This document shows, piece by piece, positions 16,301 through 64,000 of a DNA stretch of 64,000 bases. Location of the stretch: assembly GCA_963969365.1 (NCBI GenBank), contig OZ017755.1:248001-312000 (forward strand), in the 5' to 3' direction. This DNA comes from Asterochloris sp. CNOR1. Lineage: Eukaryota; Chlorophyta; Trebouxiophyceae; Trebouxiales; Trebouxiaceae. Both the position numbers and the translations under genes were made by a program. The stretch's first letter is position 1. Each line of letters starts with the position of its first letter. The notes beneath the pieces were generated by a model. The model searched no databases, was not told where the DNA came from, and was given only the letters and a program-made list of their open reading frames with translations.

Positions 16301-19300
16301 CGCGAGATGGCCACGACTGCCTCCTCCTGCCCAATGACGCGGTTGTGCAGCGTCTCCTCCATCTTGATCAGGCGCTCGCTCTCGTCACTGCTCACCTTCT
16401 CGATGGGGATGCCTGCGCAGCAGCAAGTAGGGCTATGAGTACGAAGCAGATCTGAGGTGCAACAGGTCACCCAGCAAGCATGGTCACCCTGCCTGCCTCT
16501 GCTCAGCAATGTCTCTCAAATGTCCACAGGTCAACTTTGGGGGCGGTGTTGACCTCTATCATGAAGATCGTCTTGTCAACTTGCTTCCTTTCAGGTGCTG
16601 CCACAGCTTGTGAAGGCTCAGCGGCGGCGCTCACCTGTCCACTGAGCCACGATGTTGGCAATGTCAGCCTCGGTGACCATGGGGCCACCGCCCTCTCCAC
16701 TCTCCACCTCAGCAGTGGCGTCCTCCTTGGCCTTGCTGGTGATGGCCTGGATCTGGGACTTGAGCTCCAGCTCGCGGTCGCGCATGGTGGCTGCCTTCTC
16801 AAAGTCCTGAGCCCTGCAGCAGAGGTTGGCATGCAGGTTCACAGCTGCCTGACAGTAAGTAGGCAAAGGATCTACAGCCCGCTTGCAGAGCACTGCAGCA
16901 GATGTTGGCCTGTCGCTGTGGGGCAAGGCGAGAAAGGGACACAAGCATGGCATCATCTTCCACTGCAGAGCCGCAGTAGATACCACTTCTGAGCCCTGCC
17001 AGCAGGTAGCAGAGCAGCACAACCGAGAGCACAGCCAAGAACATCACATTGCCAGCTCCGATCTCATCACCTGCTTCCGCAATACAGTTGACCAGTTGTT
17101 CTCAGGCACCCCCAGCCTATTAGCCTCCAGACATCTTCCCCAGCCCACAGAGGAAAGTCCTCTTGGGCAAGCTGTTGTGGTGTGCTAAGTGACGAATTGG
17201 CACTGATCTTGACCCAATGTTGACATGTCTGTCAACCCCGATTGCATTGAAATAGCACATGCAGCTCTGCGGCGCAGCCGTGCATGTTGATGACCAAAAG
17301 GACCCCACCTGATGGCAGCCTCCGACAGGCTGCCACAGCAGGTAACAGCAACCCCTGACCAGCACAGAATGAGGTCACCCCACCTGATGGCAGCCTCCTT
17401 GTCCTTGAGCAGTGCCTTGAGCTCCTTGTCGGGCTCACGCGCCTCCTCAGGCAGCTGCGCGTGTTGCAGACGCACTCTGCTGCCAGCCTCGTCAATCAGA
17501 TCAATTGCCTGCAGGAAAGAAGGGGACGCAGGTGACGCTACGTCCTCTTGTGTGCTGGCAATCAGAAGCCGATACTGCTCAATGCGGGAGGCTGAAGTGC
17601 TACATGTGGAGGTCAGGGAGTGCGCGCAGAATTGCTCGATCAACATCAAGCTAGATGGACATCTCCAGGCATAGGAGGTAATGCACCGCCTTGCCTGCCT
17701 CACAGGCAAGGTCACTGTTTTCAAAGCACCAAAGCTTCAGCACCCCCATGTCCTTGCGGGAGCTGTGAACATGCTGCTGTTGTCTTTCACAGATATTGTG
17801 TCCCAACGCAACAGGTTGCAGTGCGGTCAGGCGCAAACAACTCAGCTTGGGGCCAGCTCTTTCCTGCCTGAGATGCAGTGGCTGCCACATGGCATTCTCA
17901 GGCCACCTTGATTGTCTACGCGACAGCACACGGGCGCACCTTGTCTGGCAGGAACCTGTCAGAGATGTACTGACTGCTGAACTTGGAGGCGGCCATCAAA
18001 GAGTCGTCAGTGTAGCGCAGCTTGTGGTGGGCCTCGTACCGCTCACGCAGGCCAAGCAGGATCTGATAGGTCTCATCCACGGTGGGCTCAGGCACCAGCA
18101 CAGGCTGAAAACGCCTGCACAGTAAAATACGACCATGGTTCAGGTGGGCAAATAAATGCTTGCTGAACATTCCCTTTCTTGGGCTGAGCAGCTGTGGGCA
18201 GCTGCGCTGGCTGCCACTCCCAGCAGGCGGCACGGCAGCATGTCACTCAGCACATGACAAGCTGCGAGGCACCTGCAGTGGCAATCACCACCTGCAGTTA
18301 CTACAAGCACTTGATGTCTTGCAATGGCAAGTCATTGTGTGTTGCTGATGCAGGCATGCACACCAGGACTGCTGAGGTCGACAGGTCCCCGCCAGCAACG
18401 CTGTAGTAGCACAGCAACACATATAGCAGCACAGAAACCCCTCGTACCAAGTGTCGCATCACACATGGTCACCGTACCAGCCACAAACCCCACAGCGATG
18501 CAGATGCATCTGTGCCCACCTCTCCAGCGCAGGGTCCTTCTCAATGTGCTTCCTGTATTCGTCCAGGGTGGTTGCACCAATGCACTGCAGCTCGCCACGG
18601 GCCAGGGCGGGCTTCAGGATGTTGGCGGCGTCGATGGCACCTTCGGCCGCTCCGGCCCCGATCAAGGTGTGGACCTCATCAATCATCTGCAGACAGATGA
18701 GCACTCAAGACCGCAAGTTCTCAGAACCTTGACTGCAGTACACAGCACGAGTACCCCACTCTTGCCAAGCCAGCACCACAATCTCAGTTCTCTGCCAGGC
18801 ACACTTTGAAACAGGGCAGGACTGTCAGCTCCAATTGTCAAAGGAACAGCCCAAGCAGCAGCACAGCTACATGCGCCCAGCACAGATAAACACCTCCAAA
18901 TGGCTGCCTGCAGCAAACTCCAGACTGCAGCACACCTCTGTCAGAAGGCAGTGACTCACCAGAATGATGTTGTCATTCTGCTTGATCTCCTCCATCAGCT
19001 TCTTCAGGCGCTCCTCAAACTCGCCACGGTACTTGGTGCCCGCCACCAGCAGGCCCATGTCCAGAGTCACGACCTGCAGAGGGCACAGCAGTCACCTAAG
19101 GATATCCTAGAGTGTGACAGCACCCATTGTCAGCAACAACAGGCACCGCAGCCATGTCCAGCTGCAAAAGGCACAACAGCCACCTCTGGGTAGTCGCAGA
19201 GGCCATGCCAGTACCCTGCCGCATCCAAGTGGCAGGCAATACAGGAGGGCTGACATGAAGGATGGCTCTCAGGTCTGAGGCGGTGCAATGGAACGCCCCC

Positions 19301-21623
19301 AAGAACACGGTGCAGAGCATTGCAGTCCGCAGACCACAGTGCACAGGATGGGCAGCCCCTGACAAGATCAGCTGCAAGATTCCACCAGGTGCTGCCTGCC
19401 ATGCACAGCAGGGACGCCAGCTGCTGTGCAGAGAGCAGCCAGCCTGGCAGCCATGTTGCCCACCAATCTCCGTCGGGTGTAAGCCAAATCAGCCCAAGCT
19501 GTCTAGATCAGAAGCCGCCCTGCCTCAGGTGCCGCACCCCTTCTGTCTGACAAACCTGATTTGTCCAACAGACAGCGGCTCAAGCTGTCGGCTACTCAAC
19601 ACTGGAGCGGGGTGCTCAAGTCTAACCTGCTTGCCCTCAATGGTCTCAGGCACGTCGCCGCCGGCAATCTTCTGGGCCAGGCCTTCAGCCACGGCGGTTT
19701 TGCCCACTCCAGGCTCCCCAATCAGGCACGGGTTGTTCTTGGTGCGGCGGCCCAGGATCTGGGTGACACGCTCGATCTCCTTCTTCCGGCCGACCACAGG
19801 GTCCAGCTTGCCCTGCACACACAGCAAGTGCGGTCAGTGGGGCGACAGGCACAATGACCGTGGTCCAGCTAGCCCTGCAGGCGCACAAAGTGTCGACCAG
19901 CTTGCTGTGCAGGCGCAGGAACTATATGGCCCAGTAAGCGAACGGCATGTGCATATGGCGGGGCAGGAGGAGGGTCTGACTAAATCTTCTTTGCACAAAG
20001 GGCTCTCGATCCCAACACCAGTGTGTTTGACATATTTGCCTGATTGCTCGGGTCAGACTATCACCAGCCACTCGACCCAGCAAAGCAGGCCACACAGGTC
20101 CTGCAGCTGGCATGAAGAGGCTTGCCTCATTGGCCCAAGTGGCCCGCCTAGTCCCATGCTGGAGACCGCTCAGATTAGCAGGCTAGCTTATATGAGTCCT
20201 GCAGCTAGTTCCCAGGGGGCTACCTCGTTGGCCTGAGTGGTCAGGTTGGTCCCATACTCCTCCAGGGTGGGGGTCTTGTTGCTGCCAGGGCCTGTGCCGG
20301 CCCCTGCGCCAACCAGCGTCTCCTGGCTCTCACCCACCATGCGCACCACCTGCAGGCAGGAGGCAGGAACAACTCGGCACGCACAAACACTGGGAAGGCT
20401 AGATGCACAGCAAAGTGAGCTGCTGCAGCGCAGGAGGCACCAAGCAATCTCAAGGAAGTGCTGCCCGGGCAGAGGCTCTGTTGCCTGCCCCAGCCCTCTC
20501 AGTCTACCCGGCACCCACAGGCATGAGCCAAAAGGCACCAGGCTGCCATGCGCACACAGCAGGCCCGCGTAAAGTGACCGTGCCGGCATAGCTGGCAGCG
20601 CCCCATGGCAGACATGCATGTAGAGCAGCAGCACTGCAGGCAGAGCAGTCACCTGGGTCCTGATCTTCTGCAGGTCAGCCCCTAGGGTCTCCAGCACGCG
20701 GGAGGCCACACCCTCATTCTCGCGCAGCAGGCCCAGGAGGATGTGCTCGGTGCCGATGTAGTTGTGCCCTGCAATGCAATGAAGGGGTGTAGAGGGTGAC
20801 AGCAGGGACGCATGCGCTGGTCCACCTGCTGTGGCGGCAGCTGAACATGGCACCAGCAAGTTTGTATCAAGTCAGCTCCCTTCACCCAGTGTTGTGTCCT
20901 TTGCACAGGTCCACACAGCGCAGCTCAGCAGGCCTGTGATATACTGAGCAAGTGGCCAAAGTGGTCGATAGGCACAGGCCTCAGGCGGGACAGGACAGCA
21001 AGGCGCAACCAGCACACCACATGGCTACCCAGCCTTTATCCCTGCTTGACAGTTCACAGCTGTGTGCAAGCAGGCCACCCACCTAGCTGACGAGCCTCCT
21101 CCAGGGACAGCTCCAGCACACGCTTGGCCCGAGGGGTGAACGGGATCTCGACAGCAACGAAGCCGCTGCCGCGGCCAATGATCTTCTCCACCTCCACACG
21201 AGCCTCCTTCAGGTTGACCCCCATGCTCTTGAGCACCTTGGCTGCAATGCCTGTGGACTCGCCAATCAGGCCCAGCAGGATCTGCTCGGTGCCCACAAAG
21301 TTGTGGCCCAGCCTGCGTGCCTCCTCTTGCGCAAGCATGACCACCTTGATGGCCTTCTCTGTGAAGCGCTCAAACATGGCGCGTGTGACAGCACGCGTGC
21401 TGTTCCTGCTGGGGGTGGCAGCCGCCCTGCCCCCTGAGATCTGGTGCTGGACCCTTGCATGGAAGGATGGCGCAGCTGCTGTCAAGCTGTGCCTGTGGAA
21501 GCCCACATAAGACCTCAACGCTGCGACCGGCCTAGCGGCTGCTGCCGCCCGTGCACTGCACCTCCTGCAGTTCTGGGATTGGGCCAGAGCCCTCATGCCA
21601 GTTTGGTGGCCGTGCAAAAGCAT
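13313..21623 (-). CDS. clpC: Plastid Hsp100 chaperone ClpC (AAA+ unfoldase of the Clp protease)
   Basis: Stromal AAA+ unfoldase that feeds substrates to the ClpPR protease and acts at the plastid import site. Fifteen exons (descending): 21623-21083, 20768-20653, 20349-20224, 19812-19627, 19073-18960, 18686-18520, 18114-17940, 17508-17384, 16813-16635, 16412-16278, 16104-15919, 15428-15274, 14864-14674, 14253-14121, 13546-13313. They join to about 920 aa, the usual ClpC length. A plastid transit peptide of about 85 aa precedes [15 protein letters not shown]. Double Clp-N repeats follow, then Walker A1 GEPGVGKT, Walker B1 MIDEVHTL, the UVR segment ([19 protein letters not shown]), Walker A2 GPTGVGKS and [12 protein letters not shown]. 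The first in-frame ATG is at 21623; another Met nine codons on could also serve. Junctions at exons 3, 4 and 8 have copies in the introns. Confidence 0.96.
17300..17400 (-). repeat. Duplicated exon-8/intron junction of clpC
   Basis: The donor edge of exon 8 (forward-strand CCCCACCTGATGGCAGCCTC at about 17378) recurs without a mismatch over at least 20 bases at about 17303, inside the following intron. The period is about 75 bp. The identity suggests a recent event or strong constraint. Confidence 0.85.
19801..19922 (-). repeat. Duplicated acceptor edge of clpC exon 4 (two extra copies)
   Basis: The exon start with its acceptor (forward GTCCAGCTTGCCCTGCACAC, 19801) is echoed upstream of it in the gene at 19863 (GTCCAGCTAGCCCTGCAGGC) and about 19894 (GACCAGCTTGCTGTGCAGGC). 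The copies lie in intron 3, each with a CTGCAG-like acceptor. Confidence 0.7.
20099..20262 (-). repeat. Duplicated donor edge of clpC exon 3
   Basis: The functional edge at about 20197-20260 has an imperfect copy at about 20099-20160 in intron 3. Shared blocks are TCCTGCAGCT, CCTCRTTGGCC and GTCCCAT. The period is 98 bp. Confidence 0.65.
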
Positions 21624-39175: not shown

Positions 39176-42100
39176 TTAAGCGTTTGCAACCTGCAGCTGG
39201 TTCTTGCTTCCTTGCCTCGCAGGGAGCACTTTACCCTCCATGAATTGCAGCAGCTCGGCGTTCACAAGCTCCGGCACCTCATCAAAAGGGCAGTGACCTG
39301 CTGCCAGCAGCACAGCTGTTGCATTGCTGCAGGTCCCACAGATGGCCTGTGTCTGCTTGATTTTGTCAGACAAGGGGTCGTCCCTGCCAGACAGCACCAG
39401 TGTGGGCTTCCTGAACAGGTCATTCACTAAATAGTTGAGGGGTCTGGGCTTGGGCAAGTAAAAGACGCTCCTGAAGACCCCAATTGCCCCAGGGTCTCCC
39501 GCTGCCCGCAAGATTTCTGTGCTCAGCCACTCATCTGCCTGCAGCGGCGCGGCTGGGTACAGCTTGGCCTGCAGGGGACAGGAGAGGACTCAGAGGCAGC
39601 ACGTCAGCAGCTCTGAGGCCTTGGGGGAATGGCACAACCCTTAGCCAGTGGGTGGGCAAGCGACCTACACTCCCTGCAGCCCTATGTTGGCATGGTCTGC
39701 CCGGGCAGGCTGCCCTGGGGTGTCATCTCATGCACTGCCATGGTCTACACTGCTGGACACTCATGCTAGCTCACCCTGCCCAGACCCTAGCTATCTGTGT
39801 GTTGGCCAGAGTACTGCTGCAATGCGATGCCTGCTGCCTGCCTGCTTCACCCGCAGTGCTCAGGAACCCACCAGGGTTTGGGGGACCGAGCGCTCCAGGT
39901 AGAAGAACAGGCCCCGGCTGACAGCCTCCACCAGCAGCCGTGGCGGGCCAGTGGACTTGACTGACAGCGTGCCTGATGCCTTGTCAGGGGGCTGGAATCC
40001 TGGCTCCACCTTTCCGGCGCTGTTCATCAACACAAGACCTGCAGCACAGCAGCGTCATTGATTGAGCTGCAAGGTGCTGCCGCCAGGTGGTGGGGGGCGT
40101 GTATGACCTTTCTGGCAGCAATGGAACACCCGCAGGCCGCGTCACAGAGGTTGTCCTTCCTTGGCGCCATCCTCACATACAGCGCAGCAGGCCCTGCAGC
40201 AGCGCAAACGCTTGCAGGTGGCCAAGGCCCTGTTGCTTGCTCACACACACTATAACATGCCTTACAGCAGCACATGCCCTTGCAAAAAGAATAAGCTCCT
40301 GCCTTTGCTCACAGATACAGTGGCAGGCCCTGCAGCCGATGAAGGGCAATAAGAGTACGCTGCGCCTCTCACCTGCCCCAGCATGGCAGGGTTCAGAACT
40401 AGTGGGGGCCCACATCCATGCACGGACTCTCGCGGCTGGCCTGAGCTGAAACCATAAATGTGCTTGGATCTATGGTCCCAGCTCGGGAGGAGGCTGCGCT
40501 GCTGGCGGCAGTGACCCATACCTGGAACAGGCGCAAGGTGGCAGAGGCCCATGTGCTGTATTCTCAGCCCCCTCAGCTCACCTTCAGCAAGAGCTGGGTA
40601 GTCTCCTGCCAGGGAGGCAGCCATGAAGCCGCCGATGCTGTTGCCCACAATGAGGACAGGGCGGCGCACCACTTCAATGATGAAGTCGCGCAGGAAATCC
40701 CTCCACATATCCTGTGAGTAGGCCATGGCTGGCTTCTCCGAGCGCCCAAAGCCTGGGAAGGTAGGGGCAAACACCTGCAGGGACCAGAGTGCCACTCATG
40801 GTGTTATGCACAAAGATATGCAAAGGGGGGAACTTGCAGGCCAAAGCATCAACCTGCAGGAAGCGGGGCTGCAGGTAGATGGAACTGTGACCCCCCTGCA
40901 GGCCTTTCCAAGCGCACAGTGCATGCCGAGGTGAGGAATAACCACAAAAAGCAGGGGCCAGAGTGCCACTGCGAAGCGGCCAGTGGCACAAGAAGCTGAG
41001 CAGGAAATGAGGGCAGAACATGCGAAGGGCGGCATGACAGGCTGGGGCAGCAGCCTGCAAGAGGCAGTGCAGCACCAACATTTGCTGAAGGCATGGCAGC
41101 ATCAACATCTGCACAGAGCAGGACAGCAGGCGGATGCAGCACTTCTCCAGCTGCAGTCTTGCTCGGCAAAGCTGACACCATGGAAACTAAGAATGTCATG
41201 TCCGCAACGGCTGTAGGCAGCCAGTGCGTTGCACACAAGCTGCATTGGGAGCAGCGTGGCAGACCTGCTGCGCGGGCTCTTGGATGAAAAGTGGGCATGT
41301 CGCACCTGGTCAAGTGCTGCATGCAAGATGCCATGCAGAAGGGGTCGCACACCTGGTAGCCAGCCTGCGTCAGCGCCTTGATCTGCCCCCGCCACTGCTC
41401 CCCGAAGGCACCAAAGCCGTGCACCAGCAGGAAGGCTGGACGATCCTGCCCAGGGGTGGTGGCCTCTGCAGCACTGCTACTGGGAGCGGTCCCAGCCTCT
41501 TCTGCAGCGGGAAGGAGCAGAATGAGAGGAGCTGCTGTGGGCAAGCGGTGCGCCTTTGCAATGGCAAGCGCAAGCTACTGCTGGAGCAGGTGACGCGCCA
41601 GTGGACCGGAACCATGGGTTGATCTCAGTGCGCCTGTGATTGCGCAGCGTACTGTGAACAGGCAGCGCCTCTATGGACAGGTAGCGCGTCTGTCAGAAGT
41701 TGCAAAGCGAAGTGCAGATCAGAGTGCAGACTGATGGTGGCAGGGACTTGTAGCCCAGGGTCAAAGCTTGCTGTTGCTGTTGCAGCCGCGCGAGCTGCAT
41801 GCTCAGGGGTTGCTCACAGCAACGAACAACAACTCACAGCATGAGAGACCGACATCCAGCACCAACATCCAGCACCAAAGAGCAACACCTCAGCCAGGGC
41901 TGCCCAGAGACATGCTGGCAGCAAGAGCAGGCACAGCAAGCTCAGCGCTTGCTTCTTGCGGACATGCTGTTGTGCATGACCAGGCTGGGAAGGCATGCTG
42001 GGTAGCCAGCAGCCCACCTGCCGTGTAGTAATCTGTCAGGAAGCCTCTCCAGCGCCAGTGCCTGGCTGCATCACCCGTTTTGGTGTCCCTGCAGCACGGC

Positions 42101-45100
42101 ACCAGTGGCCCTGAAAGACACGGGCTTGCGCTGGAGGGACAGAAAGCCAGCCCATTGGTCAAACGCCAGTACAGAGCAGTGGTTCTGATCCAGCCTCTGA
42201 CTTGGTGCTGGACTGACAGAAGCCAGACCGCAGCTTACGAACCAGCCCGGGGTATTATTGCTACTGATGTCCTGACGACTGTCAGAAGGTCAGCCTGCTG
42301 CTTTACCCAGGAAACAGCGCGTTGGACCTGAGCAAGTCTTTGACTGGACGCCAGACTGACCACAAGCTCACTGCCCATCTCCAGTACTGATGCAAGCAGC
42401 AGATGCTAGGCGAGCAAGATACTTCCCCTGCATCTGCACATGCAGCAGTGGCATGAGGCAGCCTACCCACCAGGCTCCTGCAGAGCTGTCCCACCTGACA
42501 CGGTCAGAGGCTGCCAGGTGCCAGTGGAAGTCCGAGGCCTCCGCTGCAGCCAGCGCCGACTGCGCCGGCACGCTGGGCCGCAGCCTGCTCCCTGCCGCCC
42601 AGCTCAGGCCCAGGCCGGGCCTCTGGAGGCTGGCCAGGTGCTGCTGCGCCAGCTGGTGCACCCGGCGCCGTGACAGCAGGCCCAGGGCCATGCTCTGGGC
42701 AAAGATGGCTGGGAAGGAGCCCAGGGGGGAGGCCGGGTGCTCCCCCTGCTGGACTGCCTCCAGCAGAGCATTGGTGGCAGAGCTGCGGCTGCAGGCAGGC
42801 AGTCAAGAGCTAAGTGGTTGACGAAACGTCGTTTGCCAAGCACGGCCAGGCGCCTCAAAGTATGGCTTGGTAGCGCACTTGACTTTGCAGATATGCCAAG
42901 CACGTCAGCCCATGTAGTTGCCACGCTGTGTCTGGCTGCATCAGAAAGCCTCTGCCAGCCTGCAGCTCTTGCCAGTGCTGGAGCGCCTTGAAGTATGGGA
43001 TCTATGGCCATTGCAGCTGACAACATCAAAACCGGTGGCAAGCAGCCTGCAGGCAGGCAGCATCCACCCAGCATGTGAGCAGCACATTCATGCAGCATGT
43101 CCATGAAAGCATGTCAATGCTGCGGGGGGCCTTTGAACAGAGGTGAAGCTCTATGACAACTTGTGCTACGCGCTTGCGCGACACAATGATTCCGCTACTG
43201 ATGCTCGCCTGGAGGTGGCTGTGCAGCGAAGGAAGTCCTGGAAGACAGCCTGGGCCTCGGGCTCACCCCCTGTGAGCTGCTGCAAAATGGGGCTGAGCGG
43301 CGCTGCCGGAGCGGCAGCCAGGGACTGCGCCACCTGATGCACCTGCAGGCCGGAGCAGACTGTCAGAGGCCGCACCAATCTTTGACCTGCACCAGTGCAT
43401 CAGTTGCTGCTGTTTCACTTGCAGGATTGTTTCTGGAAGCTGCACAGATACGGTGCCTCCAGCAAACTGCTGCACAGCAAATGGAGGGCACCAAGAAGGG
43501 CAGCTGAGACGTGTGGGCGCACCTCAGGCGACCGCGCGGCTCCAGCCTCAGCGGCTGCCAGGCTGGCAGAGGCCTCTCAGGCAAGCTGCCTCACAGCACA
43601 TGCAAGACGACAACATGCCAGCTCAGACGTGTGGGCGCACCTCGGGAGATCGGGTGGCTTCAGCCTCGGCGGCTGCCAGGCTGGCAAAAGCCTCTGGGAG
43701 CAGGATGTCCCCAGGCAGGTCCTCCTGGGCCTGCTTGTCAGACCTCTGCTGCTGCACAGCGGGTTGGGGCATGCCACCCAGGGCCTCTGGAGCTGGCAGT
43801 GGGGCCAGGACGCCGCCCCGCTTCTGTCTGAACTGCTTGTAGTCGCTGGGGTAGGGCGTGTGGGTGTAGATCTGCAGGCGCCACTGTGTGAAGGTGACAT
43901 CTGCAGGGAGTGCAGCCGCCACCTGGTCCACTGATCGGTGCCACCTGCAGCCAGGGTGGGGAGCATCCTTTGCTTTGTTCATCACAGCTGTTGCAGGTGC
44001 AGTGCAGCCTGTTGTCATGCCCGGGGAGGGCTCAGGCATGCTGCAGCCTGGCATGCTGCAGGCTGAGTGCCAGCTGAGCGCGTTGCACTGCAAGGCATAT
44101 AACGATTGGGCGCAGGCCCACTTTGCAGAAGACTGCTCCAACAGCCTGCTGCAGGCTGTGGTATGCCTGCTGCAAGCAGCCCCTTGCCGAGATCAAGCCA
44201 AGGCTGCTGGGTGTGTGATGGACCTAAACAGTAACGCAGTGCCGAGGTGATCAAGAAATCTGCCGCTGAAGTCAGCCCGCTGCAGAGGTGAGAGGTGTGT
44301 GATGATCCTACACAGAAAAGCACTGCTGAGGTGACCTAGAACCTGCCGCAGGAGGGCCAGATGGGCAGCAGCACCCACGTGGTATTTGTTCTGTTTTGCT
44401 GTGGTCCACACCCCAGCTTTAAGCAGGTGCACCACTGCAGGCAGCGTCTGCTGCAGGCCCCCTGTGCAGCATGCTGGTGCTGCGCGCTGGGACTGGCGCT
44501 CGCGGCTGGAAAAGGCAGCAGCCCTCACCTGTATTCGGTCTCCTCCTCAGTCACCACCTCCCCAGCATTGAACTGCTGCACGACTGCGGGGAGCACCTGC
44601 TGCAGGCTCCCGCAGCGCACCACCAGCGTGCTGCCCAGGCGCTGCAAGGACTCCCTCAGCGCCGCGACAGCCCCCACTAAGCCTGCAGGGATTGGTGTTG
44701 TGTCTCCTGCTGGCACCTGGTGGGCTCTGCGCCGAGTCATCATCGCAGCCTGCTCTGATGCAGCAGAGCAGCAGCGGCCCCCACCCAGGAATGTGCAGGG
44801 GACGTTGACTGGATGACAACACACTGATCACTACAGTGTCTGTTCAAGTATGGCAGTCTGTGGGGTGCAGGCAGGCTCTGGCAGCTGCTGCTGCCAAGCC
44901 TAGCATCTGTTGGGGGCGTGACGGAGTGTGTGCTTGCATTGGTCGAGATTGGTGGGTACATACAGGCAACACACACCACTGCCTGGGCTTTGAATGCTGC
45001 ATTGCTGTTGCTGTGACCTGCTGCCTTCCAGTCCTGCTTGCTGTCCTCAAGCAGCTCTGACCACACCATTTTGAAGGGCATCATCGGCCACTGCTTGCTC

Positions 45101-46438: not shown

Positions 46439-47261
46439 GCCTGCAAGTCGTTCATGTGCCAGTACTGATGATTGACAGCAATGAATGCCTTCAATCAAGT
46501 TGCTTATGCACTTTGACAGAACACCTCAGTACAAGCAAAGGGTGTCAGTGCTTCTCCTGGGGGTCATTGCTCAGCAGCAGACAAGAGCTCTAGCATCAGG
46601 GGTGCATGGCTGAATACTCCACTTTTATCAAAGACTCTTCAAAAGGTACACAACACATGTGTGCCTCTGCAAGCCCAGGGCTGACTGTGCCAATGAACAT
46701 TTTGCTGGCTGGGGTTGTGCCCAGCTGCACCACTGTGCTTACTTGGCTAGCTGCATCACTGTGCTTGCTTGGCTCGCCTTAGGCCCGGGAGTCCTTTGCT
46801 GGCTTCCTCTGAAGTTGGTGTCCCCCAGGCAGCCACTGCTTCGGCGATAAGACCTGCAGAGGGCAGCCTTTGCAGCCACCTCCATGAGGCACCTGCCTCT
46901 GACAGCATCTGGGCACCGTTGCACAGTACCGTCCTCCATGAGGCAGTCTGGGCCCATTCACTGAGGTGGTGCAGAGAGGGCAGAGGAATGCAAATCATGC
47001 AAGGTGTCAAGGCAATGGCGTCTTGCAGGTGTGGCCTGCTGCACTGCTGGCCAGCAGCAGGAAGGGCACCAGAGTCATGCAGGCAGCAGCATGGCACAGC
47101 ATACCCAGCAGGCTCATTGATGTCTGCACACTCAGAGCAGACAAGGAAATTCACAGCCTGCACAACTGCAAAGGAGTTTTTCTCACGCCTCTGAAGGGTC
47201 ATCATTGTAAATATTATGAATGTTGTCGTTGTGGTGCAAAGAAATGCATCGTGAGACTGTG
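46439..47261. other. Intergenic region upstream of the MTOPVIB-like gene
   Basis: 823 bp that must contain the promoter of the downstream gene. A short tandem duplication of about 26 bp (GCTGCACCACTGTGCTTACT / GCTGCATCACTGTGCTTGCT) lies at about 46724-46775. No recognisable gene was found on either strand. Confidence 0.4.
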
Positions 47262-50060
47262 ATGTTTGACTCTGACCTGCCAGAACAAGAAAGCATGCCA
47301 GGCAGCAGTGATCACCTGCTGCAGCTTTGCAGCGGCCTGCTGGCCCGAGCCATTGCGGCATGCCGGCTGGATCATGACTGGGAGCAGCCTGAACAGATCG
47401 CAGTCACACTAAGGAGCCTGGATCTGCCTCAGAGGAGACAGCTTACACTGACAGGTGGCTATTTCGATTAGCGCTCGGGAGTTATCTGTGAACGCATCCT
47501 GCTGACAGTGTGCTGTGCAGTCTCTGACACGGGAGCACCCATTCCTGATGACCTGAGAGTGAGTCTGCTTGCCCTGACGCCTTGTCTCAATTGCAGTAGC
47601 TGGTGAGCCCACTCTTGCCTGTGCAGGCGGTCAAGCTGACAGTGTCTAGCATTTTGCCTGCTGAGGCTGCCACACTGATAGAAGGGCCTCTGAGCATCCG
47701 CACAACAGGTGCTGCAGGCCTGCTGCTGTATACATCCAAGAGCGCTGGCTGCCCCTGACTGCTGCAGCTGGTGTGCAGGGCTGGCAGACTCCGTGATCCG
47801 TGTCTACCATCTGCAGCCTGCTCTCTCCTCTGCAGCAGGAGCCCAGCCTGCAGCTTCAGCGCAGCCAGTGACGCCCAAGCAGAGCCGCTTGGCCTTCAGC
47901 GGCAGCGAGCTCTCTGTCACACTGCGGCCGCAAGGCAAGAGCCACCTGCATGCACAGCTCATGACTCTGAACAATGATGACGCTTCTGCGTTCAGCCGGG
48001 CTCAGGCTGCCAGCGCTTTGTGGCGCAAACACGTTTGGAGGGTCTATGCAGCTTGACACGCAGCAGCAGGTCACTACCTCAGCATCGCACACCTGCTGCA
48101 GCGGATCCAGGCGAGGTGGCAGCCTGTGTCCAGGCGGTGCTGGAGCTGACCAGCATGGCAGCCCCCAAGGTTCTCATCAAGCTGCGTCTGAAAGGCTTTG
48201 CTCTGCAGCAGCACCCTGATGCGAGCCAGGTGGGCGTGTCACATTGGATTGCATTCAGCCACTTCAAGCAGGTTCAGACACACCCTCACTGTGCTGGTGA
48301 TGCAGGTATCTGAGCCTGAAGCATTGCCTCAGACAGCCTGCACAGTGCTGCGGTATGACAACGAACCTCTGCCCAATATGCCAGAGGAGCGCTTTGTTGC
48401 AGGTCAGAGTACGACTAGAGCATGGCTATTGTGCTCGCTGGCCTGACCTAGTAACACCAGGGGTGCAGTCTTGATGATGCAGACCTGGGCACTCAGGGAC
48501 TCCTGGCATGCACCTGCAGGCCTGCAGACGTGGTTTGATGAGGAGGCTGTGCCCACCAACGGCCCCCAATGTCAGCCCGGGCAGGCTAGCACTCGTGAGG
48601 CAGACACCTCTCAGGGTCCTCCCACCATGATGGCAGTTGGTGAGTGGGCAGCAGTTGCCACCGCTGAGCTCTTGCTGTGTGGCATGCCAGCTACAGTGTG
48701 CAGTTGCAGAAGGAACTCTGCATACTGGACAGGCAGGCTGACATGGTGCTCACTCATGGTGCCCTCCAATACCTGCAGCAGCTGTGTGCCTGCGGGGCTG
48801 TGCGAGGTTTATTTCTTGATTCTGTGCAGGCCAGGCTGGCGCCGCAGGGCATCCAGACCTGCTCAGAGAGCACAGCAGCCTTCAACGCTGCGCCTGGACT
48901 GCCCAGATTGGCGTGGTGCTGCACTCCAAGGTCATCTCTCCAGTGTTGGGCTATGCACTGCCTCCAGGTCAGCCTGCACACACCAGCGGTCTACCCCAAC
49001 AGCTCAGCCTGCTGGTGGCCCCTAAACCAGCAACATCTGTTTTGGAGCAAGCCGCTGAACCAGGTGAGTCTGACCTGCAGGCAAGGCCCAGCTGCATCTG
49101 TTCCAGAACCATGCCCTGCTTCAGCGTCCAGCAGACAACATCACCAAAGCCCTTCAGAGATTCCCGTGGCAGGAGTTCGGCATGTCTGCCCAGGTGAGGC
49201 AGCCACAAGATCACTTCGTCAGTGTTTGCTGCAGAGCAATCATTGACAGCTCTTGCCCTGACCTGCCTGTGTGCAGGTTGTGTATGGGGCCCCTGCCAAG
49301 GGCATCATTGAATTTGCAGAGGCCTCTGACGCCCTCAGTCAAAGCATCACAGCCATTGTGGTACACCTACTTTCAGCAGATGCCAAGCAGGAGAGACTGA
49401 CTGGCAAGCGGCCTGCACTGGCAGCTTCTTCGGAGGTGACCCTGTGCCTCCCAGGCTGCTGTCTGCAGACTTGGCTTGCTGCAGCACCTGCGCCCTGAGC
49501 AGCCACAGCGCAGCCACTGCAGCCGCAGCAGCGTTGGCAGTGTGCATAAGGCTGTGACACTGTGCTGCTCACGCAGACAAAGCTCATCAGACTGGCACTG
49601 AGCGAGGCTCTGTACGACATCAAGGCCCACTTTCCTGGTAAGACAGCCTATGTTGACTGCTGCCACCCCTGCGCAGAAGCGCCTTGCGGATGAAGGTGCA
49701 GCATAGTGAGGCTAGGCGGCACAAACCCCTGTTTCTTCTGACCATGCCTTGCCATGCAGGCTCCCTGCCAAGCAAGGCAGAGCTGCGCCTGCAGACCAGC
49801 ACACGCTACCTGGCTCAGTGCATTGCCCAGATTGTGCAACGGGGCTCCACATCACTGCAGCAGGATGCCTGCCTACTGCTGGACACTGACATTGACAGCA
49901 TCCAGCCTGCCTTAGAGGAGAAGCTTCAGGTAACACTGCACATGTGCATGTAAATAGACCAGCTGTGCCTGAGGTGCTTGTTGTGGCTCCTCTTGACAAG
50001 TGCCCTTATCAGCCCTGTGTCCTGCAGGTGGCCACCGAGCTAATGCTCAGCGAGGAGTGA
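47262..50060 (+). CDS. MTOPVIB: MTOPVIB/TOPOVIBL homologue, meiotic topoisomerase VI B-like subunit
   Basis: Partner of SPO11 in forming meiotic DNA double-strand breaks. Thirteen exons: 47262-47454, 47521-47558, 47627-47708, 47779-47934, 48102-48229, 48306-48402, 48520-48639, 48830-48967, 49081-49193, 49277-49435, 49577-49637, 49760-49929, 50028-50060. All phases fit and the product is about 495 aa, essentially the plant length. Landmarks in plant order are HLLQLCSGLLARAIAACRL at the N-terminus, VSDTGAPIPDDLR (a degenerate GHKL N2 motif), GPLSIRTTGLADSVIRVYHL, FSGSELSVTLRP, VLIKLRLKGF, GVVLHSKVISPV, LFQNHALLQRPA, LQRFPWQEFGM and LIRLALSEALYDIKAHFPG. The intron at 47935 has a GC donor (AAG|GCAAGA). 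The assignment rests on my recollection of plant MTOPVIB. The start could lie further upstream. Confidence 0.72.
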
Positions 50061-50340
50061 CAGGTCGAGGGGCAAGGTAATCAGCCTGATGCCATGGTTC
50101 AAACTTGGCCATGTCCCTAATGTCCTCCTTCAAGCTTCTAAATTTAAATGTATTTGCAGCCATGTTTGCATGCACCTGTTAAGTGCAAGGTCTGACTGCA
50201 AATCTGAGGGTCATATAATGGTCACAAGTTCAACATAACTAAGCACTCCTGCTAGCAATGAGTACTTTTCCCATGCTGTCTGGATGTTTGCACCGGTGTC
50301 CTCAAATCTAAAGCAATCCTAGTACTGGAACTAGATGAAG

Positions 50341-51913
50341 CTAGGTTGTCTTCTTCTCGGCTGCCTTGCGTTGTGACTTCTTCAGACCCTTCCATAGCTT
50401 GTAACTCCAGATCTGGCTGCCTGCTGTGGTCAGGATAGCTAAGAATGCCCAGATGGACCTGCAACATTCATGTGTTGAGTGCCTTGCCCTGGGCAAGGGG
50501 ATTGCTGCCAGGATGCATGCTCACCGGTGCCAGAGTGGTATCTTTGTGGCAGACACAACCAGGTGATAGGCCTCCCAAGGAATCAGGAAGGGTGCAACCA
50601 CTGACCTGCAGACACCAATCAGGGTGTCCAAAGAAGTCTGCCTGCTGCAGGGGTCTCCATCGGAGAGCTCTCGTACCTCACAAACACAAATACATAGGTG
50701 TATATTGGGCTGAGCCACACAAAGGCATCATCAGCCACCTGCATGCCAGCGTCAGCCCTGAGTTGCCAGGCAGCTGCGCATGCAGGCAGGTGCAGCAGAG
50801 GCACATGTGGCGCCAGCGCATGCCTTGTAGTCCTGCCGCAAGAATCGTGCCATGTACCACCCATTCTGCAGCAGCGAGGTGCTCTCTCCCAGGCCCATCA
50901 GCAGCAGGCAGGAGAGGGCCCCCCTGCCGAGATACATTGCAGTCAGCATGTACCTGCAGGCAAGCAGCGCACTTCTCCACCCTAAATACTGAGTAGCATC
51001 AATGCACACTGCTGATGGCCAGGCTGTGCTGCAGACTGATCAAGCCCCAGGGCTTGCCACAGGAGCCGTGCCCATTCAAGGTGCAGCTGCCCACCAGGTT
51101 GTCATGATATGATGCCCGATGAACAGGACATCGGTTGGACTGTAGGGGATCAGGAACATGAAGAAGTCCACAATCATGTAGGCGGCTGAGAATTGAAGTA
51201 GCAGCTCTTGGTCCTGCAGATGATGGCAGGCCCACTTGCCAGCTGTAATCCACTTGGCACAGCTTTGTGCCCAGCCCCTACTGAGGCTGGCAGGGCAAGC
51301 AGGATCAGAGAAACGAGCAGTGCTGCACCTGTGTGTTTCTGTCATCCATCTTGAATGGGTATGCCGTCACCAACTGCAGGCATGTCCAAGCCCTGTCAGT
51401 CTTGCGGTTGTGCTGAGTGACAGTCTGCTGGCAGCAAGCAGGCACCAGGGACCATGGCTGCAGTTGAGCCGTGCAATGCAGTGGCGACCCTTGCATCTTG
51501 AGCCTCACCGCCCTAGCGGCCAGGTTGGCAGCAAAGAGGCCATGAAAGAAAGAGATTAGGGCAGATGAAAGAGTGCCTCTGCAGCACTGTCCAGGGTGAC
51601 AAGAATGCTCAGCAAGAGAGACGACAGGAGCATCCTGCAGCCGCACCTTGGCAGGCCTCGCAGGCCCAGCGCACTCCAGATGTAAAAAGCTAGCACAAAC
51701 AGAGTCGCAAACAGCAGCGTGAACACTGGAATGTAGCTGATAGGCTTGAATGATGGGCCTGCAGGCAAGGCTGGCTCCTGATGGCAAGCCCAACGCTGTG
51801 ACTGACATTGAGATGCAGCTGTGCAGACCTCCCAGCTGCTCAGTGATCTGGGCGGCCCTCAGCAGATGAGGATTGGTCCTGATGGCATACAAAAACCCAG
51901 TAGTTTCCTGCAT
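50341..51913 (-). CDS. TLC-domain (TRAM/LAG1/CLN8) multi-pass membrane protein
   Basis: Membrane protein of the TLC family, probably in the ER or another endomembrane, with a possible role in lipid sensing or synthesis. Nine exons (descending): 51913-51829, 51758-51647, 51578-51509, 51373-51329, 51213-51095, 50953-50824, 50738-50677, 50605-50525, 50458-50341; about 273 aa in phase. Membrane segments include ISYIPVFTLLFATLFVLAFY, SALISFFHGLFAANLA, FSAAYMIVDFFMFLI, LSCLLLMGLGESTSLLQNGW and SPIYTYVFVFV. FHGL followed by DVLFIGHHIMTTW is the usual TLC arrangement. The C-terminus KGLKKSQRKAAEKKTT is lysine-rich, like an ER-retrieval tail. The intron at 50823 has a GC donor (AAG|GCATGC). The start was chosen as the last Met before the first membrane segment; upstream codons are also open. 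Confidence 0.78.
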
Positions 51914-52913: not shown

Positions 52914-54601
52914 TCAGGTGGAGGATGGCACACCCTTGTTGCAAGCAGCGCTGATCTTTGGGCAGGGTGCAAAAGGGTCGCGGTGGCTGATGGCGCACTG
53001 GTGAATGAAGCAGGGCTCATTGTAAACGTCATCCTTGATGATAGGCTTTGGCGTCTCGCCAAATGTCATCTCACAACTCTGCAGGACTAACGATAACAGC
53101 TGTGAGCATCGTCTGCTCTGGTGCAGCATAAACCCATGGCAAATGAAGAGCCCACCAGGTCTTCAAAGTTGGGACGCATTGTCAGAGGCAAGCCAAACTT
53201 TTCTGTGAAGAACTCCTGCGTTGCTAGTTTACACATGTTGGTGCACCTGCAGAGCGGTGACAAGCTCAGTGGAATCAGCGGCTGAGAAGAAGGCAGGTGC
53301 TGAACTGGAGGGGCTGGCTGAAATCTGGCAGCAAGATTGTTCATGTCTTGCCAGCTTTAGGCCAACAAATGCTCTTTACGCTGACAGGTCGCCAGAGTGT
53401 GGCAGATCACATGAGGAGGGCAGCAAACTTACATGCCCTTGCAGCCAGCTGCTTCCAAGTATCTGCATTTCTCAATGTGGACGCCGCTGTGCCAGGTCTC
53501 TTTGCGGCCTCTGAACTCGACCTCAACATCCATAGTGTCCAGAGGACCGACCAGCCATGCAAAGACGTTTTTGGTGATCTTGGCATTCAGCTCTGCGCTC
53601 CACTGCAGGCGCCCAGGAGCAGCTCAGCCTGCTTCAGCGCGCAGTGCACCAGTGCAGGGTGTGTGTCACCAGCTTGGCTGGAGCACGGGATGTTGCCATG
53701 CTCCTTGTGTGCCGTGCAACAGCAGCAGCAGGGCATGGCCACTGCTGCCCATTGGTCCTCCTCAATCTCTGCAAGGCTCTGGCCCCCTGTGTGGAGCCAG
53801 CCTGGTGCAGCTGCAGCATGTTGTTCAGCACCAGGGATGCACCTGACAAGAATTCTGACAAGGGTGGCTTGGGTGACTGCCAGGCACTGACCTGACTAAG
53901 AGGGAACAGCCTACGAAAGATGGCGGGGGCCCCTGGGGGCAGCAGCCCTTCCAGGACTCTCAACACAGTGACCGTCTGTTCAGTGGAGGACCTGTATGAG
54001 AGTCACGTTGCTGTACCATGTTCCCGCAAGATCGTGTGCTTTGTAAGTGCATCGCAGAGCAACACAGGCAATAGGTGAGAAACGTGATGACATGCCAGAA
54101 TGTCGGACCTGCCCTTGGTGATCTCCATACTGAGGTCCACAAGCCCCTCATAGCCTGGCTTGCATGGCATGCCTGCAAACCCCAGCATGCAGCATGTCAG
54201 CCACAGGCCATGGGAAGGCAGCTGCACGCCAGGTGTGCAAAGTCGACACAGGAGAGGTGCAGCTACATGCCTCCAAGCTGTTTGGAAATGGACGAGGCAA
54301 AGAACGAGATGAATCTTTGATCAAGCCAGCTATCCTCGTAGGTTCGCTTGTCTGCAAATGGATCAGGAGCAGCTGCTTGACGCCCTGCTGCCTGCCGCGT
54401 GAGCTCCCAGCGCCCAGGGTGAGCTGCTTTGGAAGCTGGTGAGGCTGCTTTGGTGGCAGGCCTTGCAGATGAGGGGTCTGTTGTGGTGTCTGCTGAGCTA
54501 CTGCACCTGGACCAAGAGTGTCTCCAGGGCTTTGCAGGCACCTTTGGAGGTCCTGGCCCATGCGTGAGCCAATTTGCCGCCTTCTGGTGGGCCTGCTGCA
54601 T
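52914..54601 (-). CDS. D27-like beta-carotene isomerase (DUF4033)
   Basis: Iron-containing plastid isomerase family that converts all-trans to 9-cis beta-carotene in plant strigolactone synthesis; algal members probably act in carotenoid or apocarotenoid metabolism. Six exons (descending): 54601-54271, 54172-54109, 53991-53892, 53602-53433, 53246-53156, 53078-52914; about 306 aa in phase. Family motifs are YEDSWLDQRFISFFASSISK, GYEGLVDLSMEITKGR, LLPPGAPAIFRRLFP, FAWLVGPLDTMDVEV, GVHIEKCRYLEAAGCKGMCT, NMCKLATQEFFTEKFGLPLT, PNFEDLSCEMTFGE and EPCFIHQCAI. The N-terminal ~85 residues are low-complexity and basic, as in a transit peptide. The first intron uses a GC donor (GAG|GCATGT, at 54270). 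Confidence 0.88.
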
Positions 54602-60556: not shown

Positions 60557-63500
60557 ATGAGACTGGCTAGAGGTCATCAGCAGCTTCGTTTCTGTCAGAG
60601 CTCAGTCCTTCCGCAGCACAGCACCATGTTGGGCATGTGCCTGAAGCAGGCAGCTCCCCTGCGACGCCGCCTAGCTGCAGACCTCTACAACAGGAACGCC
60701 TGCAGATGCGCATCCACCTTGAAGGCAGATGCCCGGAAAACCTCCCGCGATGCAGGGGCACAAGATCACACAGCAACTCAGAAGGTTTGCCGTGCTCCTG
60801 GAGATGCCTTGCCAGAAGCCAGCAAAGCTCTTACAGCAGACACTGTCACTCCTTGGGTTCATCGACCAGTCTCCACCACTGCCTCATCCTGGATTCACTG
60901 CAGGCTAAAGCACTAGAGGCAGTGATGAAAGACATGAATGCCCGCTTCGGCAAGGGCAGCATCATGCAGCTGGGGAGCAGTGCCGCCAGCAAAGTGTGAG
61001 TGGCCTGACTGTTTGCCGTGCAAGCATGCCTCGTACCTTTGCCCATGCAGTTGTCTTGTTTTGTGGACAGCACTAAAAGAGACGTGCTCTGGAGCTGAGT
61101 GCCCCGCAAGCCTGAGATGGCCACTTGACTGCTCGGAGCATTGAGGCTGCCCTCGTCATCTGCAGGGAGTGCATTCCCTCTGGAGCGCTGACTCTTGACA
61201 TTGCCCTGGGCGGTGGCTTTCCCAAAGGGCGCATCATTGAGGTGGGACCTTTGGATGGCCGGTAAATGAGCCGAGGTGTACCACATCTGTAGGCATGCAT
61301 TGCTGGGGGCCGCTGCCACGCAACAGCCTCTTACTGCGGCCAGCCGACCAGTGTTCCATCAACTGCTGCAGCTGGTGCACAGGCCGGGGGCTGCCCACGT
61401 AGCCTGTGAGATGTCAATACATCTCATCAACGACTGGCTGGCAGCTCATTTTTGCGGCAGTCTCACCTGTGCTGCCCCGCACGCTCTGCCTCGCTTGGCT
61501 GGCGTTCTCAGAGCCGTTTGCAGGACACTTGAGCAGGGGCCCTTGCACGTCACTCGAGCAGATCCACTTTCCCTTGCAGGTTTTTGGGCCTGAGAGCAGC
61601 GGCAAGACCACCCTGGCGCTCCACGCGATGGCTGCCGTGCAGAAGCAGGGCGGCACAGCCCTGCTGGTTGATGCTGAGCACGCCTTCGACCCCGTCTATT
61701 CCAAGGTGTGCTCATGCAGTGTGGCCCCGCGCTAGCAACCTGCAGGCGCACAGGCGCATGCCTGTGTCAAGCTTCATGCCAGCGATTGTCCTGAGCGACT
61801 GTGTGAAGATCTCTCTGCTGGGCAGCAGGGCTATGCGCTGCCCTGCTTCAGCATTCTGCAGCAGTTGTACAAGGCACTGGCGATTAGGTACACTGAAGCC
61901 ATGCACTGCCCTGCGCTGACAGAAAAACCCAGGCGCACAGCTGCGCCGAAACTGTGTATACAGCACAGGGGCCACAGGCGCAGGCTGGTCAGCAGGTTTC
62001 ACTGGGTCCCCATCTATGACATCGGCATGGCAGGGGTGGCTCATGCTGCCAGGCAGCCTTCCAGCAGCAATACTCGCTCACTATAGTGCTGGCACCTCTG
62101 CACCCCTGCACCCTGCACCGCACAGGAGCCTTTGTCGTCACTTTGTGCATTCATGGCGTGGGCCTGCCGCAGTGCGTTGGCCCTGGACATGTTCAGTTGC
62201 TGCACAGATAGCAGCAACAGACTGACACCGCAACCCCTTTTCAAGTCAAACTCCCCCCTCCCCCCCCCCCCTTCCTGCACAGATGGTGTGTCCATGGCGT
62301 TGCCTGAAGTTGTGTTCTGCCCTGGTGCAGCGCGCAGGGCTGGACATCGAGAAGCTGCTCATGTGCCAACCCGACAGCGGCGAGATGGCGCTCGAGATTG
62401 TAGATCAGATGGTGCGCAGCCAAGCTGTGGACATCATCTGCGTGGACTCTGTTGCTGCGCTGATCCCCCGCGCAGAGATTGAGGGCGAGATTGGCAACGT
62501 ACAGGGTGAGTGCAATGAGGGGAACCCCATCTGACAGCCCACAGCACTGTGAGACATGGCAACCCTGCAGATCTGGGGAAGAATCGCTCTAGATGCTAGG
62601 TTGCTACGCCAGATGCCTCATTTACTATTACCACACACTTGTGCATGGCGGCTGTCACGTCAGCCAGTCAAAATTGAACAGCGCTCTCATGCCACCAGGC
62701 ACCCTTCGTCCAGAGTGAGCAATTGCCGCACAGACTATCGGCGTTGCAAGCCTGTCCCCTGTTTTGCAATGAGCAGCTTGAATGCTGGCAACGTCCACGC
62801 AGGATACTGAGTCTGCTGCGATCGAGCTGGCCTTGTCTCTTGGAGCCTGCTGTCTTTGCTTTGGCCGGAGGCTGTCTCGTCAGGCAAGGCTCCCATGGCT
62901 GATCCAGCATGCAGCATGCTTGACACTTTGAGACTTGAATGGAGACGACTGGGCGCCTGCCGCCATCTGGAAGAGGATTGAGTGGCCCTCATGGCCACTG
63001 GCAGCAGCATTGCAGCACCTCACGCCTCACCTTCCTGCCCTGCAGTGGGATCCCAGGCACGTCTGATGAGCTCAGCACTGCGCAAGCTGACCGCCAATGC
63101 CAGCAAGTGCAACTGCACCATCATCTTCCTCAATCAGCTGCGCATGAAGATTGGCGTCATCTATGGAAACCCAGAGATCACCTCTGGGGGCAATGCGCTC
63201 AAGTTCTACTCCTCTGTGCGTGTGGACGTGCGCAGAAAGCAGCAGATTGAGGGGCCCAAAGGGGATGGCATCGGAGTCAAGGTCAAAGCCAAGGTGCGGC
63301 GGTGTCATGCAGGCGCTGTGCAGTTGCGTGCGGCAGGCTGGTGCACAGGTGCACCCTCAGATAAGCTGCATCAGGCTCTGCACCATGCATCCCAGCTGGC
63401 GAGCCTGCTGAGCAACAACGCAGCTTTGCGTGCATGCATCCTGGTAGGTCTGCTGGGCAAACGTGCAGATCTGCTGGCAGGTCTGCTGAGCAAGCGTGCA

Positions 63501-64000
63501 GATCTGCTGTGCCTGAGTGAAGAGGTGAGGCCTCTGCTCTGCAACAGGCGCCAAGCCCGCTCTGTAAGCCATCATTGGGGCAAATTGAGTGGAAGTTGTC
63601 TTGCTCAGCGTGAGCAGATTGCCCGACTGCAAGCTGCCACCCTGCAGCTCTGCAGGAGCCTCAGGGCAGATGGAAGGCTGTCTGCAATCTGACCAGATCC
63701 AAGACTCGTTGAGACGTTTCTTCAAGGCTGCATCACCAATGTGCCCCCGTCGCACTGCTTGTGCTTGCAAGAGCCTGACACGTGTGCGGCCCCATTGCTA
63801 TGCCTGTCATCTGTGTGGATCAAGCTGGCCTGTGCTCCCCACAGGTGGTCAAAAACAAGTGCGCAGCCCCCTACAAGGTGGCCGAGTTTGACATCATGTT
63901 TGGCAGTGGCATCTCCACTCTGGGGTGCTTGCTGGACGCGGCTGAGAGCACCAGCGTGGTGCAGCGCAAGGGCAGCTGGTACTCGTACGGCGAGCGCAAG
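60557..64000 (+). CDS. RECA: Organellar RecA recombinase, plastid type (3' end cut by window)
   Basis: Bacterial-type DNA strand-exchange protein for organelle genome repair. Exons: 60557-60784, 60904-60995, 61166-61241, 61580-61705, 62331-62505, 63046-63293, 63845->64000; 367 aa to the edge, all in phase. Motifs are [38 protein letters not shown], Walker [41 protein letters not shown] (Walker B and L1), [37 protein letters not shown] and [20 protein letters not shown] followed by [11 protein letters not shown]. The C-terminal part resembles plant plastid RECA1 rather than mitochondrial RECA3. The basic leader ([14 protein letters not shown]) could suit either organelle. The first in-frame ATG is 60557; 60626 is the alternative. 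Intron 6 holds a 33-bp tandem repeat. Confidence 0.94.
63430..63515. repeat. 33-bp tandem repeat in a RecA intron
   Basis: The unit GGTCTGCTGRGCAARCGTGC followed by AGATCTGCTG is present about 2.5 times at 63444-63509 (GTGCAGATCTGCTGGCAGGT, then GTGCAGATCTGCTGTGCCTG). It lies wholly within the intron 63294-63844. Confidence 0.75.

Follow-up and report, generated by a model that had tools for sequence, protein, structure and literature searches.

On the forward strand of the analysed stretch of Asterochloris DNA (64,000 nucleotides, referred to below as the window), positions 47262-50060 carry a gene whose product is probably an orthologue of MTOPVIB/TOPOVIBL, a non-catalytic partner of SPO11 in the initiation of meiotic recombination, which would dimerise, hold SPO11 and aid its loading for the formation of meiotic breaks. 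Judging from sequence comparison and gene prediction, we assign this reading a probability of roughly 0.87. The identity had been put forward in the original prediction, and it is supported by collinear full-length similarity to Arabidopsis MTOPVIB, by a degenerate GHKL-like part, by transducer motifs, by the uniqueness of this resemblance within the window and by the absence of a canonical topo VI-B signature. The gene at this position is real, and its structure is strong for exons 6-13 and weaker for exons 1-5.

A 13-exon chain runs in phase from start to stop

Splice-site testing of positions 46500-51000 reproduced the proposed in-phase model of 13 exons, leading from the ATG at 47262 to the TGA at 50060 with the phase kept at every junction; the same stop was reached by an independent gene finder. 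The model comprises 1479 nt and encodes 492 amino acids, close to the predicted length of about 495. Its introns are 66 to 190 nt long, and all are of the GT-AG type apart from one GC-AG intron (11 and 1 of 12, respectively). TGCAG serves as the acceptor of 10 of the 12, and this preference is strong throughout the window, as it was found at 22 of the 28 acceptors of other window exons in the gene finder's training list. Four introns (5, 7, 8 and 9) are frame-shifting and contain no in-frame stop, three (1, 6 and 10) have a stop inside without altering the frame, and the other five combine a frame shift with a stop. Splice-site scores are good at most of the introns.

The gene had been described as complete. 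This is likely, but its 5' part is less secure, owing to the exon 1/2 border and the joining of exons 4 and 5. Codon usage of exon 1 (47262-47454) is non-coding-like, with a score of -15; the two remaining frames, at -15.7 and -14.5, are interrupted by stops. Two more in-frame ATGs are located upstream of the chosen one, at 47220 and 47244. The border between exon 1 and exon 2 (47521-47558) is uncertain, as spliced alignment favoured an intron at 47403-47471 instead in all three settings. Both introns flanking exon 3 (47627-47708) were recovered by spliced alignment to Arabidopsis residues 1-135 in two of three settings. The weakest intron is intron 4 (47935-48110), which is the GC-AG one and has weak sites; its alternatives are 47935-48101, 48033-48133 and 48042-48133, and with the other exons fixed, four in-phase joins of exons 4 and 5 fall within 2 units of one another (19.9, 19.3, 18.6 and 18.1). 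It needs to be mentioned that the choice of exons 1-5 was made partly with MTOPVIB in view.

We decided against an additional exon near 48704-48829 (frame SYSVQLQKELCILDRQADMVL). Its in-phase entry needs the weak donor at 48636, manual inspection yielded exits only from donors that miss the cut-off, and the gene finder keeps the region in intron 7. An open, coding-looking frame is nevertheless present within this intron at 48692-48829 on the forward strand, and it could represent an alternative exon, joined by weak donors only.

The 3' two thirds of the gene are predicted without homology

We used a gene finder that had no knowledge of MTOPVIB. Training started from a list of 28 exons. The 13 of these that have a single open frame, together with eight Pfam-supported stretches, supplied the 1021 codons of its codon table, and its splice matrices combined a generic prior with 24 donors and 28 acceptors of the listed exons. 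All training data lay outside 46-51 kb, but the list had been drawn up in a cruder run across the entire window, made with a self-trained gene finder that was then discarded because it collapsed into a single gene spanning the window, in which 41% of the donors were GC.

At all three intron costs, the prediction coincided exactly with the model in exons 6-13, in 8 of its 12 introns and at the stop. The score at the locus was 35.5, compared with a best score of 2.9 in random sequence (first-order Markov, 6 x 64 kb searched on a single strand, which yielded three genes). Over both strands of the window, the gene finder reported 15 genes scoring above 12. Exons 1-4 and the 5' part of exon 5 were left out, and the predicted gene starts at 48046 or 48155. 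The failure to join exons 1-4 is explained by the poor codon usage of exon 1 and by the score of the full 13-exon model, which is 18.1 compared with 35.5 for the truncated version. Since exons 6-13 were predicted independently and exons 1-4 were not, the 3' two thirds of the gene stand without homology, whereas the 5' third leans more on it.

These data bear on the idea that the locus is a relic, i.e. an MTOPVIB pseudogene that is no longer expressed. Codon bias of the predicted 3' gene is indeed weak (0.062 per codon, compared with 0.399 in a ClpC-like gene of the window), and the weak GC-AG intron 4 and the non-coding-like exon 1 would agree with decay. On the other hand, 13 exons follow each other without a stop or a frameshift, and good splice-site scores are kept at most introns, intron 4 being the weakest. 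We thus regard a pseudogene as unlikely.

The product resembles Arabidopsis MTOPVIB over its full length

The Arabidopsis MTOPVIB sequence (AT1G60460, Q5Q0E6) was used as printed in the table of PMC9957857. The two proteins are collinear (473 amino acids in Arabidopsis, 492 in the alga) and align end to end with 23% identity. When the fixed gene model was compared with shuffled sequences under six scorings, the score was reached by 0, 0, 0, 3, 0 and 0 shuffles per 1000, with z values from 4.3 to 10.3. The reversed algal protein was also in mild excess (6 local and 40 semiglobal per 1000), so low z values carry little meaning. Phmmer with this single pair gave an E value of 9.7e-5, the best stretch being residues 90-154 of the algal protein. 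The resemblance is present in both parts of the protein: the 3' part, predicted without MTOPVIB, was equalled by 1 of 1000 shuffles in local and none of 1000 in semiglobal scoring, and the 5' part by none of 1000 in either. The gene finder's own product of 336 amino acids gave 0 of 200 shuffles and a z of 4.9. Among the 15 predicted window proteins the resemblance is unique to the product of the present gene, the other 14 (score above 12) having z values between -1.4 and 1.9.

A different picture emerged when the splice sites were left free. We set aside, and do not rely on, a genewise-like spliced alignment of the locus with Arabidopsis MTOPVIB, because its paths were frame-hopping and the full gene did no better than many shuffles. 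For the whole gene it was not significant (equalled by 4 and 23 of 60 shuffles) and for the 3' region not clearly so (21, 13 and 24 per 300). Only the 5' region gave informative results, and this under part of the settings (2, 0 and 11 per 300 against Arabidopsis residues 1-135). With single sequences, hhalign placed algal residues 314-452 on Arabidopsis 265-391 at the very low probability of 1.4 per cent. The case is good when a fixed, largely independently predicted protein is compared with MTOPVIB, and poor when the gene is freely spliced or compared with topo VI-B.

One might argue that the locus, perhaps only at 48046-50060, is an unrelated lineage-specific gene resembling MTOPVIB by chance, its 5' exons being parts of another gene or of nothing at all. 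The similarity is remote, the 5' exons are not linked to the others by the gene finder, and the free spliced alignment lacks significance over the full gene. However, each half alone resembles Arabidopsis MTOPVIB, the two halves follow each other as in that protein and share a strand, and GHKL and transducer landmarks occur at the expected places, which makes a chance likeness very unlikely.

The GHKL-like part is degenerate and is followed by transducer-like motifs

To describe the landmarks of the putative orthologue, we used a three-way alignment of the algal and Arabidopsis proteins that included topo VI-B of S. shibatae, checked against 2zbk_B. The N-box, D-box and ATP lid are the boxes of the GHKL fold with known catalytic roles. 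The GHKL-like start is encoded by exon 1 (residues 1-64, model and alignment), where archaeal ELIENSLDA faces algal GLLARAIAA, so that the archaeal E, N and D are opposite G, R and A. As residues 14-45 contain no Asn at all, the N-box Asn cannot be retained there. The D-box equivalent, VSDTGAPIPDDLR, lies in exon 2 (residues 65-77, alignment), which starts with the predicted motif VSDTGAPIPDD (residues 65-75); archaeal VVDNGIGIP faces VSDTGAPIP. In exon 3 (residues 78-104), IEGPLSIRTT faces Arabidopsis WDGLLSVKTT, leaving little space for an ATP lid, and the lid stretch is mostly a gap in the algal protein. FSGSELSV of exon 4 (47779-47934, residues 105-156) faces FSGTEVSLSV in Arabidopsis and FHGTSVAIS in the archaeon. 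The GHKL-like part ends in exon 5 (48111-48229, residues 157-196, model) with AVLELTSMAAPKVLIKLRLKG; the 3' part of this exon also belongs to the gene finder's prediction, from 48134 or 48155.

Ab initio prediction supplied all subsequent exons. A linker is encoded by exons 6 (48306-48402, residues 197-228) and 7 (48520-48639, residues 229-268), the latter containing GLQTWFDEEA, which by eye is like Arabidopsis GLEDYVLRHA. The transducer-like part begins in exon 8 (48830-48967, residues 269-314). Exons 9 to 12 are backed by alignment as well: exon 9 (49081-49193, residues 315-352) has the transducer-like FPWQEFGM (IDWKKYGL in Arabidopsis, LDWKRYGI in the archaeon), exon 10 (49277-49435, residues 353-405) the transducer-like strand AIVVHLLSA, by eye similar to archaeal MVVMVHLCS, and exon 11 (49577-49637, residues 406-425) the helix LALSEALYDIKAHF, where the second predicted motif, LALSEALYDIK, was also found. 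Exon 12 (49760-49929, residues 426-482) encodes the C-terminal part, and exon 13 (50028-50060) ends with the TGA stop.

The order of these landmarks matches that of Arabidopsis MTOPVIB, as had been claimed for the plant protein, while their spacing agrees only roughly, the linker being longer in the alga. Arabidopsis MTOPVIB likewise has no canonical N-box, retains the D and G of the D-box, and shares a W-x-x-(Y/F)-G motif and a C-terminal A-L-x-x-(L/I)-K helix. The alga differs from it by the longer linker, by the lack of an acidic C-terminal tail and by the D-box (GAPIP instead of GIGCN). In all, the candidate GHKL-like part appears degenerate, without N-box catalytic residues or an ATP lid, in a register that rests on weak similarity, and the predicted GHKL/D-box pattern fits Arabidopsis MTOPVIB, which is described as dimeric and DNA-binding, without ATP binding (PMC11077084).

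With archaeal topo VI-B, the alga shares the order of GHKL-like and then transducer-like landmarks; it differs by its replaced N-box residues, the mostly missing lid stretch, the lack of a Topo-VIb_trans match and weak pairwise similarity. Out of 1000 shuffles each, 249 equalled the full model in local and 7 in semiglobal scoring; the 3' part was equalled by 190 and 15 and the 5' part by 345 and 92 per 1000; for Arabidopsis MTOPVIB itself these values were 0 and 2 per 1000. The N-terminal register was the same in hhalign with single sequences (algal residues 5-75 on topo VI-B 18-84), at the very low probability of 0.7 per cent, and a profile of the algal and Arabidopsis pair gave no match to topo VI-B.

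The sole Pfam match of the algal protein was HATPase_c at residues 16-78, below the cut-off (E 0.038), and Arabidopsis MTOPVIB likewise had nothing above the cut-off. The archaeal control was matched by Topo-VIb_trans at 4.2e-67 and HATPase_c at 1.6e-11. The canonical signature in Pfam, i.e. Topo-VIb_trans together with an intact GHKL part, is absent from the algal protein; the motifs of its transducer-like part align, yet no Pfam or PDB profile matches them. PDB searches with the algal protein and with the two-sequence profile returned chance-level matches and no topo VI-B. NCBIfam gave nothing for either the algal protein or Arabidopsis MTOPVIB, and the lack of NCBIfam and above-cut-off Pfam matches for both proteins is explained by the fast evolution of MTOPVIB. 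Pattern scans can reveal close relatives only; of 13 pattern matches in genome contigs and 2 in viral contigs, none was confirmed as such a relative. Rfam gave no match at the gathering score. As no transducer match was found where the archaeal control gave 4.2e-67, the product appears B-like and degenerate rather than a canonical topo VI-B. A somatic, ATP-dependent canonical subunit (TOP6B/BIN3) is accordingly the least probable reading: it would share the landmark order, and the algal D-box DTGAPIP is closer to archaeal DNGIGIP than is Arabidopsis DTGIGCN, but the N-box residues are replaced, the lid stretch is mostly missing and both profile matches of the control are lost or reduced to a marginal HATPase_c hit.

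Other genes of the window

The convergent neighbour of the MTOPVIB gene (50341-51913, reverse strand) is predicted to encode a polytopic membrane protein, TLC-like by eye only; its product had no Pfam match at E 0.01. Three further genes lie on the reverse strand. One, at 39176-45084, is predicted to combine DNA_photolyase (E 9.9e-8) with a following alpha/beta hydrolase (E 8.2e-19); a plant gene of the same composition is known. Another, at 52914-53699, has a beta-carotene isomerase D27-like C-terminal domain (E 5.9e-36). The third, at 13313-21377, is the ClpC-like chaperone (Clp_N, AAA_2), predicted as one chain of 24 exons and 924 amino acids. A RecA-type gene is located on the forward strand at 60925-63712 (Pfam RecA, E 2.7e-33 for one ORF), split in two by the gene finder. 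SAP18 and eL33 genes are also present, and the best PDB matches of this eL33 are entries which we take to be plant ribosomes.

MTOPVIB and meiosis in green algae

MTOPVIB/TOPOVIBL proteins are described as having a GHKL-like and transducer-like fold without H2TH (PMC11302465). The same role, that of a B-like SPO11 partner, has been proposed for animal TOPOVIBL and yeast Rec102/Rec104 (PMC11302465, PMC11511760), which we liken to the algal protein by role alone. For the algal product we infer the fold, dimerisation, SPO11 binding, break formation and meiotic expression. As the product of a nuclear gene, it would be the B-like subunit of a meiotic topo VI-like complex. To judge by homology, the protein would form dimers that need no ATP, and its transducer-like arm would hold SPO11 (in chlorophytes probably just SPO11-2). 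It may then help to load the SPO11 pair on DNA, where SPO11 would make the meiotic breaks.

The gene had been expected to extend the family in chlorophytes, and this view is not supported in the light of a 2023 survey (PMC9957857). Of the eight break-formation proteins studied there, Chlorophyta, which keep SPO11-2, gave no sign of DFO, PHS1, PRD2, PRD3 and SPO11-1, and each Viridiplantae lineage had the remaining ones. MTOPVIB belongs to the survey's protein set, as given in its introduction and table, and is not among the undetected ones, which implies its earlier detection in Chlorophyta, although section 9 names neither MTOPVIB nor algal species. With the family already reported from green algae, the locus is a useful added member and no surprise; it is a new, well-resolved member of the MTOPVIB family. 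As the family escapes Pfam and NCBIfam, each well-supported distant member aids the building of profiles to find others.

Meiosis genes and suspected cryptic sex have been reported previously for Trebouxiophyceae and other Chlorophyta (PMC11286282). It is conceivable, though rather doubtful, that this alga makes meiotic breaks by a minimal complex of MTOPVIB and a SPO11-2 homodimer, without SPO11-1 or recognisable RMM partners, in a meiosis that has perhaps never been observed. In the same doubtful reading, the better-kept D-box (DTGAPIP) might even leave the algal protein some nucleotide contact lost in Arabidopsis MTOPVIB. An intact B-like subunit in chlorophytes offers a handle on a complex without the SPO11-1/SPO11-2 heterodimer, and on whether algae never seen mating retain meiosis.
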